Shown here in pieces: positions 13,692 through 22,830 of a stretch of 44,164 bases of DNA. The stretch covers positions 1 to 44,164 of the forward strand of contig JACRMP010000035.1 in NCBI GenBank assembly GCA_016214885.1, given 5' to 3'. The first letter of the stretch is position 1. Every line of letters starts with the position of its first letter. A model generated the notes under the pieces. That model saw only the letters and a list, made by a program, of their open reading frames with translations, was not told the DNA's origin and made no database searches. The position numbers and the translations under genes were made by a program. This DNA is from Candidatus Gottesmanbacteria bacterium (lineage in GTDB: Bacteria; Patescibacteriota; Microgenomatia; UBA10105; UBA927).

Positions 13692-14841
13692 TTACGAAGC
13701 AGCAAATAACCGGGCCAGGTCGGCAACCGCCACGGTTTTTTGTTCCTTTGTTTTCATGTTTTTAAGGTTTACTGTTCCTTTGGCAGCCTCCTCCGGTCCC
13801 TGGATTATCACAAACGGAATGCCGGTTTTGTCTGCGTATTTAAGCTGTTTTTCCAACTTATCGGAAGCGTTTGAGCTCAGCATTAAAAATAGTGACAAGC
13901 ACCTGTCCTGCGACCGGGAGCGCCGGTACAAGGCCCATAATTTCTGCAGCCTCGAGCGTGCGGTCAAATCCCACGGCAAATCCCGTGCCGCCGATGTCGC
14001 GGCCTGCGAATTTTTCTAAGAGTCCGTCATAGCGTTCGCCACCCAGTACCGACATGTTGTATCCCGCATCCGGTATCTCTACTTCCCAGATGGGTCCCAT
14101 GGAATAGGAGAATGAACGGGCGATAGTGGGATCGAACGCATACCAGTCGTCAGGGAACCCGTAGTCTTTAAGGTACTTAAGGATGATAGTAAGTTCCTCA
14201 TTGGGCTGGAGGTTTTTTACGTAGGACAAGTATTCCTTGGCCTGGGCAAGGCTTATCCCTTTTTTCTCCATCTCAGCTAACACGCCGTCATCGCCGATTT
14301 TTTTGATTTTGTCGATCGATACGATCGCATCGTAGGGTATATCGCGGAACAGCGCCCGGGAGTTGATGCGGACGAGTGCGTTTTTAAAGCCAAGCTGTTT
14401 ATATATTTCGAGAGAAAGGGCGATTGTTTCTGCATCGGCATCAGGAGTTTTTACCCCGAAAATATCCGCATCGGCCTGGGTGAATTCACGATAGCGCCCT
14501 TTTTGCGGCTTCTCCGCGCGGAAGGCCGGCTGAATCTGGTAGCGCTTAAAGGGGAATGTCAGCTGGTTCTGGTACTGCGCTACGACACGGCAGGTGGGGA
14601 CGGTTTGGTCGTACCGGAGTGCGACATCCCGTTCACCCTGATCCTTGAATTTAAAAAATAATTTTTCGTCTTCTCCGATTGCCCCTACGAATATTTCGAG
14701 CGGTTCAAGGGTGGGGGTCTCCAGCGGCGCAAAGCCCCAGGAGCTGAATATGCCTGCAAGTTTATCTCTAAGCCACTTCCGTTTTGCTGCCTCAGGGGGC
14801 AGAAAATCGCGGAAACCTTTTAACGGCAATATTGTATTCAT
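13692..14841 (-). pseudogene. hisS: Histidyl-tRNA synthetase, frameshifted near the C-terminal anticodon-binding domain
   Basis: Class II motifs LRYDQTVPTCRV, QKGRYREFTQADADIFG and GGERYDGLLEKF in one frame to 13858. NASDKLEKQLKYADKTGIPFVIIQGPEEAAKGTVNLKNM continues in another frame to 13692. Confidence 0.85.
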
Positions 14842-14891
14842 AAATCCTCCTTAATCGTAGCAGTCAGCCACGTCCCTCACAATAGTGAACT

Positions 14892-15164
14892 TCACCTTTT
14901 TCGTTTTTCCAGTTCTCTGTACATATCATCCGGGGTGACACCCAAAGCCGCCCACAAAACGACGGAGTGAAACAATAAATCGGTAAACTCCTCAATGCTT
15001 CGCTGTCGGTCAGTGTTTTTGGCGGCGATGACTACTTCGGTCGCTTCCTCACCAATTTTCTGTATTAGCCGGTCGCGGTTTGCCAAGAGGGAGACAACGT
15101 ATGATCCCTCAGGGTTGGTTTCCTGCTGTTTTTTTATCATTGCATAAAGTTCATCAATGGTCAT
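14892..15164 (-). CDS. hisE: Phosphoribosyl-ATP diphosphatase
   Basis: RLIQKIGEEATEVVIAAKN...EFTDLLFHSVVLW; overlaps the hisI stop. Confidence 0.93.
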   Translation of the reverse strand: MTIDELYAMIKKQQETNPEGSYVVSLLANRDRLIQKIGEEATEVVIAAKNTDRQRSIEEFTDLLFHSVVLWAALGVTPDDMYRELEKRKR

Positions 15165-15457
15165 ATATTCTCCTTTCGGTAAAAGCACGATGTATTGCCC
15201 GTGTGACATGTTGCCCCTTTGGGATCCACCCGGATAAGATAGGCATCATTATCACAATCACAGAACATATCTATCACCCGAAGAGTATTACCTGATGTTT
15301 CTCCCTTTTTCCAAAGCCGGTTTTTTGACCGGCTCCAGAACCATACCCGTCGGGTTTGTTTTGTTTTTGCGAGTGCCTCCTCATTCATGTATCCCAGCAT
15401 GAGGACGTCACCGGTTATATTATTCTGGATGACTGCAGGAACAAGGGTAGTTTTCAT
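15161..15457 (-). CDS. hisI: Phosphoribosyl-AMP cyclohydrolase
   Basis: LMLGYMNEEAL, WFWSRSKNRLWKKGETSGN, DCDNDAYLIRVDPKGATCHTG. Confidence 0.95.
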   Translation of the reverse strand: MKTTLVPAVIQNNITGDVLMLGYMNEEALAKTKQTRRVWFWSRSKNRLWKKGETSGNTLRVIDMFCDCDNDAYLIRVDPKGATCHTGNTSCFYRKENI

Positions 15458-16218
15458 ACATCCCTCCGTATAGAAATATTCTGCTCGGACAAATACCGTT
15501 TGAGTTCCGGTATTGATAGGTCTCCGAAGTGGAACAGTGATGCCGCAAGTGCGGCATCTGCTTCGCCTGTTTGGAAAACATCCGCGAAATCCTGCATGGA
15601 TCCCGCGCCGCCCGATGCGATAACTGGTACAGATACTGCCCTGGACACCGTGCGGGTGAGTTCCAGGTTAAATCCTTTTTTGGTTCCGTCCATATCGATA
15701 CTGGTCAGCAATATTTCTCCCGCTCCGCGGCGTACGGCTTCTTTTGCCCAGTCGACGGCAGAGAGGCCCGAATCTAATGTCCCGCCGTTTATGAATGCGT
15801 TCCAGCGGTTAGGAGCGACTTTTTTGGCGTCCAGCGACAATACGACACATTGGCTGCCGAATGCGTTGGCACACTCGGTGATGAGAGCGGGATTTGTTAC
15901 CGCGCCGGTGTTTACGGATACCTTGTCTGCTCCTGCCCGCAGGATCAGCTGCATGTCAGATACGCTTCGTATACCACCGCCCACAGAAAACGGTATATTC
16001 ACTTCTTTGGCTGTTTTTGCCACAACATTCAATAAAATCGGTCTGTTTTTTACCGTAGCGGTAATATCTAGAAATACAAGCTCATCCGCTTCATTGTCGC
16101 TGTATTGTTTGGCAAGTTGCACGGGATCTCCCGCGTCACGGAACGAAACAAACTGAATACCCTTTACTACTTTGCCTTCTGTCATATCAAGACAGGGGAT
16201 AATGCGCTTTGTTGTCAT
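15454..16218 (-). CDS. hisF: Imidazole glycerol phosphate synthase subunit HisF
   Basis: RIIPCLDMTEGKVVKGIQF, PFSVGGGIRS, VIASGGAGSMQDF. Confidence 0.96.
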   Translation of the reverse strand: MTTKRIIPCLDMTEGKVVKGIQFVSFRDAGDPVQLAKQYSDNEADELVFLDITATVKNRPILLNVVAKTAKEVNIPFSVGGGIRSVSDMQLILRAGADKVSVNTGAVTNPALITECANAFGSQCVVLSLDAKKVAPNRWNAFINGGTLDSGLSAVDWAKEAVRRGAGEILLTSIDMDGTKKGFNLELTRTVSRAVSVPVIASGGAGSMQDFADVFQTGEADAALAASLFHFGDLSIPELKRYLSEQNISIRRDV

Positions 16219-16826
16219 AAAATCTCCTTTATAAAATTTGTTAATAATATTCTTCCGGCTGTACTGCTTTTTTCCGGGTGAAACTGTGTCGCGAATATAT
16301 TTTTATAGGCGACGGCGCTGGTAAATGTACAGCCGTATTGTGTGGTGGCCGCTATTATTTCCGGGTCTGTCGGCTCGGGATAGTAGCTGTTCACAAAATA
16401 AAACTCGCTGTTTGGAATGCCGTTAAACAACCGGACGGCTTGCGGGTTTTGTGTACTAACGGTTACCGTATTCCATCCAATCTGCGGCACTTTGTTTTGC
16501 GCCCCGAATTTCACAACTTTCCCTTTGAGTACGCCGAGACACGGAGTATCCGCTTCTTCGCTGTATTCAAAAAGTAACTGCAATCCCAGACAAAATCCGA
16601 TAAACGGTACACCTTGCTGTATCCGGTTCCGGATCACGGTGTCTAAGCCGCGTGCTTTCAGATTTTGCATGCCAACTCCCGCCGCCCCCACTCCGGGCAG
16701 CAGGAGGGTGGCGGCGGACCCGACAACAACAGGATCACTACTTACAGCGCAAGAGACACCGAGCGACTCAAATGTGTTGAGAACGCTCCCTATGTTTCCT
16801 AATCCGTAATCAATGATGGTTATCAT
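16215..16826 (-). CDS. hisH: Imidazole glycerol phosphate synthase subunit HisH
   Basis: IIDYGLGNIGSV, LLLPGVGAAGVGM, IGFCLGLQLLFE, ATQFHPEKS; start trimmed to MITIIDYG. Confidence 0.95.
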   Translation of the reverse strand: MITIIDYGLGNIGSVLNTFESLGVSCAVSSDPVVVGSAATLLLPGVGAAGVGMQNLKARGLDTVIRNRIQQGVPFIGFCLGLQLLFEYSEEADTPCLGVLKGKVVKFGAQNKVPQIGWNTVTVSTQNPQAVRLFNGIPNSEFYFVNSYYPEPTDPEIIAATTQYGCTFTSAVAYKNIFATQFHPEKSSTAGRILLTNFIKEIL

Positions 16827-17413
16827 AATGCTCCTTTGGTTGACGGAATTTGTCCGCCGCTTTTTTTGTCTATCTCGACGGCACGGCGGATTGCCCGTGC
16901 TATCGCTTTCCATATCGCCTCGGCTTTGTGATGATCATTTCTGCCGTTTTCGACTTTTATATACACATTGGCTTTTGCGTTTTGGGCAAAAGCATCCCAA
17001 AAGTCATACACCAGTTCTGTGCTGAAATCTCCGATCCGCTCCCGTGTAAACGGACAGGTTAAGGTGAACGCATAGCGCCCGGAAAAATCTATGGCAACAG
17101 TTGCCAGCGCTTCATCCATGGGCAGAATAAAAAATCCATACCGATTGATGCCGCGTTTATCTCCGAGTGATTTTGCAAATGCTTCACCCAGTACAATGCC
17201 GATATCTTCCACGGTGTGGTGATCGTCAATATAGGTGTCACCGGTAGCCTTCACCGTCAGATCAAATAATCCGTGTTTGGCAAAAAGATCCAACATGTGG
17301 GTGAGAAACCCTATGGGTGTTTCTATCTGGCGTATCCCGGTGCCATCGGGATTGAGCTTAATAGCAATATCGGTTTCTGATGTTTTGCGTGTGACTGTTG
17401 ATATGCGGTTCAT
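16823..17413 (-). CDS. hisB: Imidazoleglycerol-phosphate dehydratase
   Basis: IETPIGFLTHMLDLFAKHGLFDL, DDHHTVEDIGIVLG, GRNDHHKAEAIWKA. Confidence 0.95.
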   Translation of the reverse strand: MNRISTVTRKTSETDIAIKLNPDGTGIRQIETPIGFLTHMLDLFAKHGLFDLTVKATGDTYIDDHHTVEDIGIVLGEAFAKSLGDKRGINRYGFFILPMDEALATVAIDFSGRYAFTLTCPFTRERIGDFSTELVYDFWDAFAQNAKANVYIKVENGRNDHHKAEAIWKAIARAIRRAVEIDKKSGGQIPSTKGAL

Positions 17414-18132
17414 ATAACCTCCTTTAGATTATTTATTGTTGGTATTTGGTTGTCTCCAACTTTTTCGTTACCGACATATATGCTCGGCATGTCTGCCGCT
17501 TTGGCAGCGATTACATCGTTTATTGTGTCACCGATATAAACGGGATAACTCGCATTCATACGCCTGGACGCTTCTAACAGAGGATCAGGAGCAGGTTTTC
17601 CGTTTACCGTATCTTCGAGCGCCACGATATAGTCCATGGGAATATACGTTGGTGTAATACCGAGACGAGTGAGTGAAAATATTGCTTCGTTTTTGGGTCG
17701 CCCGGTAGCAATCCCCAGGCGGTATGACTCCTTAAGATCGGCAAGTAAAGTTTTGTCTATCAGAAGTGATTCGTTGGCGATACAGCCATCATAGGTTTTA
17801 CCGACATATATGGACTGAAAGCGTGTTTTGATACGTTTGTACAGACGGGAGTTTCGCACAGCATCGGTCAGTGGGGAAATATTTTCCGCAAACGCCGATG
17901 GCGAAAAGTTACGCCCCAACAGATCGACAAGTGCATATGATGTATCCCAGTCATTGTTGAATCCGGGAATTGATTTAATGGCGCTAATTGTTTCCGGTGT
18001 TACCGTAACTTTCATATTCTTAGATTCCAGCAGTATAGACGCCACTGTCCGGCATGTGGCTTCGGTAAAAGCTTCGTTCCCGACGAGCACGCCATCTATA
18101 TCGAAAATAATTGCATCAATATTTGGTTTCAT
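17410..18132 (-). CDS. HAD-superfamily hydrolase, candidate histidinol-phosphatase
   Basis: IIFDIDGVLVGNE, GIATGRPK, VYIGDTINDVIAAKAA. The position between hisC and hisB suggests the role. Confidence 0.8.
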   Translation of the reverse strand: MKPNIDAIIFDIDGVLVGNEAFTEATCRTVASILLESKNMKVTVTPETISAIKSIPGFNNDWDTSYALVDLLGRNFSPSAFAENISPLTDAVRNSRLYKRIKTRFQSIYVGKTYDGCIANESLLIDKTLLADLKESYRLGIATGRPKNEAIFSLTRLGITPTYIPMDYIVALEDTVNGKPAPDPLLEASRRMNASYPVYIGDTINDVIAAKAADMPSIYVGNEKVGDNQIPTINNLKEVI

Positions 18133-19184
18133 AGAATTTCCTCCAGAACTTTTATGAGTGTGGTGTTTTCCTTCGGGCTTCTGACGGTTATGCGGATACA
18201 GCCATTGAGATACGGTTTTGTGCTGCGGTCGCGCACGATAACGCCTCTTGCGGCCAGCTTGGCGGCAACCGAGCTGGCTCGGTTGCCCACATCCACGAGC
18301 AGGAAGTTTGCTTCCGACGGATACGCAGATAACCCAAGAGTTCTAAGTGCTTTGGCAAGTTTTTTCCGCTCTGTTTTAATCATCAGGATTTGTTTTTCTA
18401 TCCATGGTTGGTCATTATTGAGTACTTGCTCCGCAAGGTTTGCAGAGAGAGTACTGACTCCCATGGGGAACCGGATAGCGTCAAAGACCCTGGAGAGTGT
18501 GGGGTTAGCGATTAGATATCCGATGCGGGCTCCTGCAAGACCTGCAAATTTTGAAAATGTTTTGAGAACGATAAGGTTATTGTATTTCTTCGTAAGCGGA
18601 ACAACTGTTTTTCCATAAAATTCGCCGTATGCTTCATCTACTACGACAGCGCAGGATGACCGCGAGACGATGTCGGTGACGGTAAGTCGCGGGATGACGG
18701 AGCCGGTCGGATTATTGGGATTGACGAGAAAAATAAGCTTCGTCCGTAGTTTTTTTGACGCACGGATAATTGCAGCAGCATCGACGGCAAACGTTTTTGG
18801 AGCAAGCGGAATTTCATACACTATGCCGCGGTTGATTTGACACTGGATAGTGAACATTTCATACGTCGGAGGTGTGACGACGAACCTGTCGCCGGGATCT
18901 AAGAAAGTTTTAGCCAGTATATCGATTGCTTCATCCCCGCTGTTTGTCACCGTAATCATTTCTTCGGGTACACGTTCGTATGCCGCAATCTGCGTTTTCA
19001 GCCTTCGGTATGCAGGATCACTGTATTCATTGATTGAGACAAGACCCTTGATCGTCCGTTTGATGGACGGCGGAGGACTGGGAAGCGTATTCGTGTCAAA
19101 CCGCAGACAGTTTTTTACAGCATACGTCTCCCATTGATACGGGCGGGCAATTTGTCCTATTTGTGATAGCTTAATTGCTTTCAT
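18129..19184 (-). CDS. hisC: Histidinol-phosphate aminotransferase
   Basis: LIFLVNPNNPTGSVI, VVDEAYGEFYG, LKTFSKFAGLAGARIGY. Confidence 0.93.
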   Translation of the reverse strand: MKAIKLSQIGQIARPYQWETYAVKNCLRFDTNTLPSPPPSIKRTIKGLVSINEYSDPAYRRLKTQIAAYERVPEEMITVTNSGDEAIDILAKTFLDPGDRFVVTPPTYEMFTIQCQINRGIVYEIPLAPKTFAVDAAAIIRASKKLRTKLIFLVNPNNPTGSVIPRLTVTDIVSRSSCAVVVDEAYGEFYGKTVVPLTKKYNNLIVLKTFSKFAGLAGARIGYLIANPTLSRVFDAIRFPMGVSTLSANLAEQVLNNDQPWIEKQILMIKTERKKLAKALRTLGLSAYPSEANFLLVDVGNRASSVAAKLAARGVIVRDRSTKPYLNGCIRITVRSPKENTTLIKVLEEIL

Positions 19185-20487
19185 AAATACCTCTTTTTTT
19201 CGCAAACCTGATCGACACGGAATTTTTGTGCGCGGGCAACTGTTCTGCTTCGGCAATAACCTCAATAGTTTTCCGTATTTTTAGTAATCCGTTTTTTGTG
19301 CATTTCTGCACTTGCATCCATTTGCCGTATGCATCCACTCCCAGCGGGGGATACATTTTGGCCATGCCGCCCGTGGGCAGGACGTGATTGGCTCCCGTCG
19401 CATAATCTCCCGCAGCTTTTGCCGTCCAATCACCCAGAAATACTGATCCTGCATTTTGGATACGTCGGGCGACCGAATCCGGATCTCTGGTCATTATTTC
19501 CAAGTGTTCCGGCGCGTAGCCATTGGTAAACGCAATTGCATCACTCATCGAATCAGCAAGGGCAATCAGCCCGAATGCCTCCAAAGATTTCGCCGCGCGG
19601 TCAGCAGTTGTAAGTCCGGGCAGCTGTTTTTGAATTTCTGTAAGCGTCTGACGAGCAATTTGCCGTGATGTGGTTATCAGTACACACGCGGAATCCTCTC
19701 CGTGTTCACCGTCCGCCAGAAGATCCGCCGCGATGAATGCGGGGTTCGCCGATTCATCCGCGATGATAAATATTTCCGAAGGACCCGCTGGCATGTCGAT
19801 GCTCACCGTATTGAGCGCCAGCATTTTGGCGGCAGTCACCGATGCATTTCCCGCGCCGAATATCTTGCACACGGCAGGAATGGTTCTGGTGCCGTAGGTC
19901 ATTGCTGCAATGGCTTCAGCGCCGCCTACTTTAAATATATCGGTGAGCCCTATCATATTGGCGGCAATAAGAGTTGCAGGGGGGATTTTTCCGTTGTCTC
20001 GCGGAGGGGAGCAGAGTACGATATCACGGCATCCGGCAATCTGAGCCGGTATAGCGGTCATCAGTACCGATGACGGGTAAACCGCTTTTCCTCCGGGGAT
20101 ATAGAGACCGACTTTTTCTATCGCGCGCCATTCCCGCCAAACAGTGATGCCGGGTTCTGTCTGAACAACGGTATCTTTCCGTTTCGGTAGCTGAGCGCTT
20201 TGTGCGGCAGTGATATTTTTTATCATTTGTTTTAATGCCGTAATGGTTTCGCCTGATACGAGCGAGTATGCTTCGGTTATTTCCCGGCGGGTAACAGCGA
20301 TGGATCCGTACGCGTTTCTGCCGTAGCGCTTGGTGTATTTGTCAGAGAGAACTTTGTCTCCGAGCCGCCGCACGGAATCCATAACTTGAGCTACCCGGGG
20401 GAGGATTGTCTGATCCATTCCCCGGCTGCGTGCAAATATCCGCAGGTAATCGTTCTTTCTGATGGCGGAAAGTTTTGTAATTTTCAT
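19171..20487 (-). CDS. hisD: Histidinol dehydrogenase
   Basis: [47 protein letters not shown]. Confidence 0.95.
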
Positions 20488-20491
20488 ATAA

Positions 20492-21349
20492 TTAAGAAAT
20501 AATTTTTTCGACCGGCAGCATATAAATATTTTTTGCCCCTAAATCTTTCATACGGTCAAAAACAGTCCAGAACATATCTTCTTTGATGACGCCGTTTACC
20601 GACAGGCGTTGCCCGGGGAGCGCTGTCATGACAAGGTTGGGAAGTAGTTTTGTGAGTCTCGGCGCTGATGTATCCGGAACGGTGAGACTGATGTATTTAT
20701 AGTTTTTTGCGGAAAGAACTGATGTAAACCGGGTGATGAGTTGGCGCAGAACCGGATTTTTTTCGGTGTCAGCGCCGAGTTTTTCATTTGCTATAAGTAC
20801 GGCTTCCGATCTGTATATGGGGGTAAGCAGCCGCAGATCGTTCATGGCGAGTGTGCTGCCGGTAGATACAAGATCCACAATTGCCGCCGCGAGCCCCAGT
20901 GACGGTGCAATTTCTACAGATCCCTTAATCGTGATTGTTTCTACTTTCACGCCGTATTTTTGAAAAAATTGTTGGGTTGAGCGGGGATAGGAGGTCGCGA
21001 TCGTTTTGCCGTTCAGCCCGCTTATGTCATTAATGGGGGACTCCTTGGGTACGGAAAGCGCTAGTGAACAATATCCATAGCGGAGGTTTAAGAGTTTTTT
21101 CACCTTCGGCCGTTCTTCGTTGAGTATATTCTGTCCGAGAATTCCCAGATCAACGGCACCGCTTTCCACGAGGCGGGGAATGTCATCATCCCGCACGTAC
21201 AGTATTTCGACAGGCATATTCCTGCAGGCGGAGAATAGCTTCCTGCTGTAGCTTTCGAACTCAAGTCCGGAAGCACGCAAAAACCCGAGCGTATTTTCCG
21301 TGAGACGCCCGTTTTTCTGCACCGCCAGTTTTAGGTTATTTTTATTCAT
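20492..21349 (-). CDS. hisG: ATP phosphoribosyltransferase, long form with C-terminal regulatory domain
   Basis: LAVQKNGRLTENTLGFL, ATSYPRSTQQFFQ, C-terminal SVNGVIKEDMFWTVFDRMKDLGAKNIYMLPVEKII. Confidence 0.94.
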   Translation of the reverse strand: MNKNNLKLAVQKNGRLTENTLGFLRASGLEFESYSRKLFSACRNMPVEILYVRDDDIPRLVESGAVDLGILGQNILNEERPKVKKLLNLRYGYCSLALSVPKESPINDISGLNGKTIATSYPRSTQQFFQKYGVKVETITIKGSVEIAPSLGLAAAIVDLVSTGSTLAMNDLRLLTPIYRSEAVLIANEKLGADTEKNPVLRQLITRFTSVLSAKNYKYISLTVPDTSAPRLTKLLPNLVMTALPGQRLSVNGVIKEDMFWTVFDRMKDLGAKNIYMLPVEKIIS

Positions 21350-21362
21350 ATGTAATTCCTCT

Positions 21363-21438
21363 TGGGGTGGCTGACGGGTAACGCTCCCGCTCCATCTTGC
21401 TCCACAGGCAAGCGCTCTCCTTTTGAGCTACAGCCACC
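21363..21438 (-). tRNA. tRNA-His(GTG) with G-1, C73 and encoded CCA
   Basis: Minus strand GGTGGCTGTAGCTCAAAAGGAGAGCGCTTGCCTGTGGAGCAAGATGGAGCGGGAGCGTTACCCGTCAGCCACCCCA. Anticodon stem CTTGC/GCAAG, loop CTGTGGA. Confidence 0.93.
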
Positions 21439-21497
21439 AAAAAACCTCCCGTTCGTTACGCACCACGTAAAAAACGTGCTACGTAAGGAACGAGAGG
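21439..21497 (-). terminator. Intrinsic terminator of the T-box leader
   Basis: CCTCTCGTTCCTTACGTAGCACGT-TTTTT-ACGTGGTGCGTAACGAACGGGAGG-TTTTTT: 24-position stem with 2 wobbles and 2 mismatches, then 6 U. Confidence 0.9.
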
Positions 21498-21680
21498 CAT
21501 AAAAAAAAGACCTCCCGCGGTCCCATCCTTAGTTCCTAAAGGTGTTTCTCCTTCAGGCTCTTAGGCCGACTCCGCTTGGCGACATCGACTGTTGGATATG
21601 ACGGTTCAACCTCCGGAAGGCATTTTGACCTTCAGCTCGTGGATCGTGACTCCACTGTTTGCGCTTTTCTATTAACTTGT
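21439..21680 (-). promoter_or_regulatory. T-box riboswitch leader of the histidine operon
   Basis: T-box core AAGGATGGGACCGCGG. Stem III-like CCTGAAGG-agaaaca-CCTTTAGG. Antiterminator UAAGGA/UCCUUA + 7-nt bulge UGGGACC + GCGGGAGG/CCUCUCGU. Competing terminator. Confidence 0.88.
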
Positions 21681-21687
21681 ACACGAT

Positions 21688-21715
21688 ATAGTACTACAAA
21701 TTCCGAGAATGTCAA
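21688..21715 (-). promoter_or_regulatory. Promoter of the his operon / T-box leader
   Basis: TTGACA (21715-21710), 16-nt spacer, TACTAT (21693-21688). Confidence 0.75.
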
Positions 21716-21732
21716 ATTACCAACGATTTGTA

Positions 21733-22830
21733 TCAACGGACAATTAGCTCTTTAGGGGATTGGGAGACGATTGTTATACTGTCATTATTGATGAAGACGA
21801 GATCCTCGATGCGGATGCCGAATGAGCCCGGAATATATACTCCCGGCTCGATCGTGACGGTCATGTTTGGGGTAAGCACTTGTGCTTGGGCGACCGTGAG
21901 CCGGGGCCGTTCGTGGACGGCTAACCCCACCCCGTGGCCGAGGCTGTGGGGATAGACCGGCAGGTTTGCTTCGGCGATAATTTCCCGTGCCGCAGCATCC
22001 AGCGTTGCACCGTTGCGTTCGCCTGTATTGAGCATCGTAATTGCTTTTGTGTTGGCGGCTAACACCGCTTCATAGGCATTGACCCATTCGGATTTTGGCG
22101 TACCGGCAAATACCATGCGGGTCATATCGGCGCAATACCCATGCATTTTTGCCCCAAAATCTATGAGCACAATATCATTTTTGGCAAGTTTCGCTTGGGA
22201 CACATGGCTTAGCCCGTAGTGGGGAAGCGAAGTGTTTTTGCCGAACGCAACAATAGGAGAGAATGCATTTTCCGCCTGATGGTCACGGAAAAATGATTCG
22301 ATCGCCGATACAACAAATGATTCGGTTACTCCGGGGCGAAGGAGGGGGATAAGCATGCTGAAGCATTCGTCCGTACGCTTGGCAGCATCCCTGATAAAAC
22401 GGAGTTCATGAATTTGTTTAATCTCCCTAAGCTGTTCTACCCGGTCGTTGGTCGCGGTAAGTCGGATGCCGCGCAATTCCGCTTCCAATTTGTGCAGTTC
22501 GTAAACAGTCAGGTTTTTTTCTTCGTAACCAATGGATTTAAGGTTCTGTTTTGCAGCAGTTTCTGATACCGCTTTTTGTATTGGATTTTCTTTACTTAAT
22601 ACGGTGAGACGGAGCGGGGTACCGAGCACGGAGGATGGACTCTCTTTGACAAGAAGCTCTGCTGTTTCGCGGTAAAGCGGGTAGGTAAAAAGGCGTACTT
22701 CACGACGGGTGACCAGGAGAAACGATTCCCGTTCCATTGGAGCAACGCCGGTAAAACCCGAAAGATACTGGATATTTACGGGGTTGGTAACAAAAATAGC
22801 ATCGTGCTCTTCGGGAATGATGTCGGTCAT
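21733..22830 (-). CDS. M24 family Xaa-Pro aminopeptidase
   Basis: VLIDFGAKMHGYCADMTRMVF, HSLGHGVGLAVHERPRL, MTVTIEPGVYIPG. Confidence 0.93.
   Translation of the reverse strand: MTDIIPEEHDAIFVTNPVNIQYLSGFTGVAPMERESFLLVTRREVRLFTYPLYRETAELLVKESPSSVLGTPLRLTVLSKENPIQKAVSETAAKQNLKSIGYEEKNLTVYELHKLEAELRGIRLTATNDRVEQLREIKQIHELRFIRDAAKRTDECFSMLIPLLRPGVTESFVVSAIESFFRDHQAENAFSPIVAFGKNTSLPHYGLSHVSQAKLAKNDIVLIDFGAKMHGYCADMTRMVFAGTPKSEWVNAYEAVLAANTKAITMLNTGERNGATLDAAAREIIAEANLPVYPHSLGHGVGLAVHERPRLTVAQAQVLTPNMTVTIEPGVYIPGSFGIRIEDLVFINNDSITIVSQSPKELIVR

Follow-up and report, generated by a model that had tools for sequence, protein, structure and literature searches.

T-box leaders lie directly in front of a gene for their own tRNA in candidate-phyla bacteria

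In candidate-phyla bacteria, leaders with the anatomy of T-box riboswitches, RNA switches that sense uncharged tRNA, sit directly in front of a gene for that same tRNA. We find this arrangement upstream of the histidine biosynthesis operon of a Candidatus Gottesmanbacteria genome (GCA_016214885.1, a 1.12-Mb assembly), within a stretch of 44,164 nt (contig JACRMP010000035.1; hereafter the window). It recurs for tRNA-His in Gottesman-, Woese-, Davies-, Ames-, Shapiro- and Brennerbacteria and others, and related arrangements exist for tRNA-Tyr and further tRNAs. We did not find it described in the open-access library searched, although novelty is not certain because subscription papers lay outside that search.

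Anatomy of the his leader

The original prediction held that a tRNA-His gene starts at the first base after a T-box terminator and precedes hisG, and this observation proved correct to the base. On the minus strand of the window, the elements follow each other in the order listed.

21688-21715 (-): sigma-70-like promoter, TTGACA-16-TACTAT, upstream of the T-box (10 of 12 consensus matches; 2 found in the region, 0.8 expected in shuffles).
21639-21655 (-): ultrashort Stem I, hairpin GTGGA-GTCACGA-TCCAC, with the CAC (His) specifier (21648-21646) in a 7-nt loop.
21617-21632 (-): Stem II-like hairpin AAGG/CCTT (4 of 4 pairs with changes on both sides, 96.9% of cells paired).
21591-21616 (-): Stem IIA/B pseudoknot (CCGG/CCGT with GTTG/CAAC); both helices covary, but the outermost pair is not formed in the window itself.
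21567-21587 (-): further helix CGA..CGC/GCG..TCG with an internal loop (5 of 6 pairs with changes on both sides).
21535-21557 (-): Stem III hairpin (4 of 4 pairs with changes on both sides; 68.8% of cells paired, the alignment being loose here).
21485-21530 (-): antiterminator AAGGA-[TGGGACC bulge]-GCGGGAGG/CCTCTCG-TTCCTT, whose UGGG (21525-21522) is complementary to the tRNA-His 3' CCCA; nearly invariant, so it covaries little.
21439-21497 (-): intrinsic terminator CCTCTCGTTC/GAACGGGAGG plus U6 (U-run 21444-21439), sharing its 5' arm with the antiterminator (97.1% of cells paired, 5 pairs with changes on both sides).
21363-21438 (-): 76-nt tRNA-His (GUG, G-1:C73, encoded CCA), with T-loop AGCGTTA.
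21357-21362 (-): SD-like AGAGGA, in a 13-nt gap.
20492-21349 (-): hisG (ATG at 21349; PF01634 + PF08029, long form).
13692-20487 (-): rest of the operon, named from sequence: hisD, hisC, HAD phosphatase, hisB, hisH, hisF, hisI, hisE and hisS.

The promoter-like match is the only one on that strand in 21200-21900, and lies before the T-box. The last gene, hisS (13692-14841), encodes the only HisRS found in the genome and is split by a frame change near 13,870 (profile positions 2-338 in one ORF, 357-405 in another). As it is intact in two other genomes (G005 and G001), an assembly error or a very recent mutation is likely.

Is the leader a T-box? The Rfam T-box model (RF00230) does not hit the window leader even at E=10. 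That model is built on long Stem I forms, and other CPR T-boxes also score mostly below gathering, so the identity rests on comparative evidence. HisG searches in relatives and an exact scan for the antiterminator gave related leaders; locus L035 of G005, a same-genus genome, matches the record of Candidatus Gottesmanbacteria nzgw410 (L162). In an alignment of 16 leaders, the proposed structure has 92.8% of cells paired, against 81.0% in shuffles, and 25 pairs with changes on both sides, against 14.0. None of 500 shuffles reached either value, and sliding the partners destroys the signal. The GTCACGA specifier loop is invariant in the aligned set while its stem covaries (GTGGA, CTGGA, CCGGA, TTGGA, GTGAA), and the arm shared by the mutually exclusive antiterminator and terminator, CCTCTCGTTCC, is conserved in all 16 leaders. 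The leader is hence a T-box by anatomy, albeit of an unusual form: only a 5-bp specifier hairpin is present, whereas transcriptional T-boxes generally need a long Stem I with an elbow-binding distal motif, a feature that not all members of the family have (PMC7583486).

Conservation of the linked tRNA-His

Rfam scores the window tRNA at 52 bits (gathering 29) and it folds as a cloverleaf; ARAGORN misses it, presumably because its T-loop is AGCGTTA instead of TTCRANT. Of 30 candidate-phyla loci with the exact antiterminator motif, 16 have a tRNA-His just downstream. Together with the HisG-derived loci, 22 distinct T-box/tRNA-His units were fitted, plus two his leaders with the tRNA but no T-box (L036, L097). 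These counts leave out L403, a T-box/tRNA-His locus in genome G573 whose T-box core we could not recognise, and L178, which resembled a further T-box/tRNA unit from its GGTGGTCGTAGC start but is followed by no tRNA. In the 24 linked tRNAs, stems are 99–100% paired with compensatory changes, and anticodon GUG, G-1 and C73 are invariant. In six loci (window, L038, L084, L094, L153, L172) the tRNA starts right at the end of the U-run, leaving no room for a separate promoter. Since the arrangement is conserved in relatives, chance and misassembly are excluded.

Downstream genes are mostly hisG, sometimes an aminotransferase (L160), unknown genes, or an unknown gene with hisS further on (L153). In Brennerbacteria and a Parcubacterium (L164, L176), a small ORF starting M(S/L)KIHRAFGGSGPH with a good SD lies between the His T-box terminator and tRNA-His. 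Four hisG leaders (L080, L085, L092, L096) have no T-box but short ORFs with His-His codons before a terminator and a TTAACATGTTAA-like palindrome, suggesting ribosome-mediated attenuation.

Could the window copy be a degenerate pseudogene? Stem covariation in the 24 copies and a coupled change at positions 18 and 55 speak against this. In the window, L035, L036, L039, L086 and L164 the T-loop has G55 and the D-loop A18, where the others have U or C55 with G18. The association is complete, 6 against 18, though the D-loop register of the window copy is ambiguous and the loci are related. Four of the six also swap U54/A58 for A54/U58, and 18 of the 24 copies have TTC or TCC in the expected place of the T-loop. 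This looks like a rebuilt elbow rather than decay. Alternatively, the linked tRNA might be a dedicated sensor or non-proteinogenic tRNA, kept out of translation and used as the T-box ligand, or a cis element bound by HisRS. The altered elbow of six copies would fit such a role, as S. aureus non-proteinogenic tRNA-Gly also lacks GG at 18-19 (PMC4052509). However, 18 of 24 copies have an ordinary elbow, G51-C63 is mostly kept, and G49-U65, a strong EF-Tu pair (PMC4052509), is kept in 24 of 24, unlike the S. aureus case. The changes do not look like a loss of EF-Tu contacts, and we consider this reading unlikely. Retention of G49-U65 speaks for, but does not prove, use in translation, which remains uncertain for the window copy given its T-loop.

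A second tRNA-His gene

The original prediction also named another tRNA-His copy supplying the cell as a finding that would refute it, and a second copy exists. The genome carries an ordinary, canonical tRNA-His (contig C32, 8527-8601) with a TACAAT box just upstream, which rules out that the linked gene is the only tRNA-His of the cell. Among 96 relatives, the six genomes with an intact hisG have two tRNA-His matches each, while four same-genus genomes without hisG have one, a canonical copy; the second copies examined have canonical T-loops. The same holds for tRNA-Tyr in ten of the eleven genomes checked. The linked tRNA is thus an extra copy that goes with the operon, and, as a constitutive-looking copy exists, it may not be needed.

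Some relatives have the T-box without the tRNA (L072, L074, L075, L078, L079, L099) or the tRNA without the T-box (L036), so neither part strictly needs the other. The HisG tree has weak backbone support, but its starred branches force at least four changes of the T-box+tRNA state, with close pairs differing (L073/L074, L079/L161); the tRNA has therefore been gained or lost repeatedly. This pattern, and the degenerate Tyr-linked copy of the window genome (see below), might reflect neutral hitchhiking, wherein a duplicated tRNA gene landed behind T-box terminators and was carried along with the operon by transfer. Cognate identity, conserved cloverleaves with compensatory changes and recurrence for several amino acids make this very unlikely.

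T-box/tRNA units for other amino acids

To assess generality, Rfam T-box hits were taken in relatives and in 287 genomes of the phylum, and 201 downstream regions were inspected for tRNAs; some of the first set lack a recognisable core, so units may be missed. Sixteen have a tRNA just downstream: ten tRNA-Tyr, one degenerate Tyr copy in the window genome, one tRNA-Phe, one tRNA-Trp and three clusters of three tRNA-Arg. About 1.8 would be expected from tRNA density, a comparison whose Poisson probability overstates significance because the genomes are related. Wherever the specifier could be read, by eye, the nearby tRNA is the cognate one (UAC in all Tyr leaders, UGG for Trp). The tRNA-Arg clusters have a TATAAT-like stretch after the terminator and may thus have their own promoter. 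In the window genome (contig C2, 17926-18458; L001, L028), a long-Stem-I Tyr T-box is followed by the degenerate tRNA-Tyr copy (anticodon loop CGGTTAG, called tRNA-Asn by ARAGORN) with a partial tandem duplication before it; relatives have an intact tRNA-Tyr there. The T-box-linked tRNA-Tyr of L127 (genome G075) is only 73 nt and lacks the long variable arm usual for bacterial tRNA-Tyr. In two related genomes (L353, L360), a tRNA-Ile(tat) gene lies just upstream of a T-box.

In 13 of 32 His/Tyr T-box units, across both amino acids and several families, the start codon of the next gene lies 2–3 nt after the discriminator base without an SD. If the tRNA is cut out, the mRNA would be near-leaderless. 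This raises the possibility that the linked tRNA works mainly as punctuation, that is, as a cleavage signal that removes the T-box leader and sets the 5' end of the mRNA, with the released tRNA as a by-product. That L036 keeps the tRNA without the T-box fits this view. However, it does not explain why the tRNA is cognate, and many units, the window included, have an SD and a longer spacer. Moreover, a clear RNase Z, a candidate for the general 3' enzyme, was found only in G171 and G188 of nine genomes searched. We hold this reading tentatively; it does not exclude the one favored below.

Discussion

What might be the role of this arrangement? We favor, with reasonable though not full confidence, a transcriptional T-box riboswitch specific for tRNA-His whose first regulated gene is a second, putatively functional tRNA-His gene, followed by the His biosynthesis genes and the cell's only HisRS, such that tRNA, amino acid and synthetase would share one switch. 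In this view, when uncharged tRNA-His accumulates, its GUG anticodon would pair with CAC in the specifier hairpin and its free CCCA end with the UGGG bulge, the antiterminator would form and polymerase would read through. The transcript would carry tRNA-His in its 5' leader, and RNase P and 3' processing would then cut the tRNA out, adding to the tRNA-His pool and giving the his mRNA a defined new 5' end. The anatomy, the covariation, the cognate identity of the tRNA, the recurrence of the arrangement and the presence of a second tRNA-His gene are established by the sequence comparisons, while the response to uncharged tRNA and switching, read-through, processing, charging, use in translation and any feedback effect are inferred from sequence alone.

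The interpretation originally proposed is thus partly supported. That a T-box precedes, and by its anatomy should control, a gene for its own ligand tRNA is borne out by comparison. The proposed positive feedback, wherein uncharged tRNA-His would promote the synthesis of more tRNA-His, is an inference and the loop is not closed, as the riboswitch would control one of two tRNA-His genes. The idea that tRNA processing would release the upstream riboswitch and create a new mRNA 5' end gains indirect support from the loci whose start codon lies 2–3 nt after the tRNA. A more far-reaching, though less likely, possibility is that candidate-phyla bacteria use a general module of T-box, cognate tRNA and gene, in which uncharged tRNA switches on more of the same tRNA, a positive loop that could be switch-like, and in which tRNA excision generates the near-leaderless mRNA of the regulated gene.

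T-boxes are a textbook case of tRNA-sensing regulation, and their listed targets are protein genes. Here, the target would include the ligand itself, for several amino acids, in a large group of mostly uncultured bacteria. This makes testable whether tRNA supply can be under direct tRNA-sensing control, whether such loops are bistable, and whether tRNA excision is a way to make near-leaderless mRNAs. It also points to a blind spot, as surveys that annotate downstream proteins, and the Rfam model, would overlook such units.

How does this element compare to known systems? With T-box riboswitches (RF00230) of his operons and aminoacyl-tRNA synthetase genes it shares the specifier codon, the IIA/B pseudoknot, Stem III, a UGGN bulge complementary to the discriminator, the antiterminator/terminator switch and the position upstream of biosynthesis and synthetase genes. 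It differs in that the first gene predicted to be regulated is the ligand tRNA itself: Wels et al. list 62% synthetase, 12% transport, 18% biosynthesis and 8% unknown targets and no tRNA genes (PMC2494555), and TBDB annotates downstream proteins (PMC7778990). Ultrashort Stem I T-boxes, described among translational T-boxes (PMC7583486), likewise carry the specifier in a short hairpin without an elbow-binding distal part, but here the expression platform is an intrinsic terminator and the specificity is His. In bacterial tRNA-mRNA cotranscripts such as E. coli thrU-tyrU-glyT-thrT-tufB, tRNA and mRNA also share one transcript from which the tRNA is cut out, yet no riboswitch that senses the same tRNA is known to control that operon. 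Finally, the S. aureus non-proteinogenic tRNA-Gly genes are likewise extra tRNA copies with altered 18/19 positions in a T-box organism, but those have weakened EF-Tu pairs (PMC4052509), while the His copies described here keep G49-U65.
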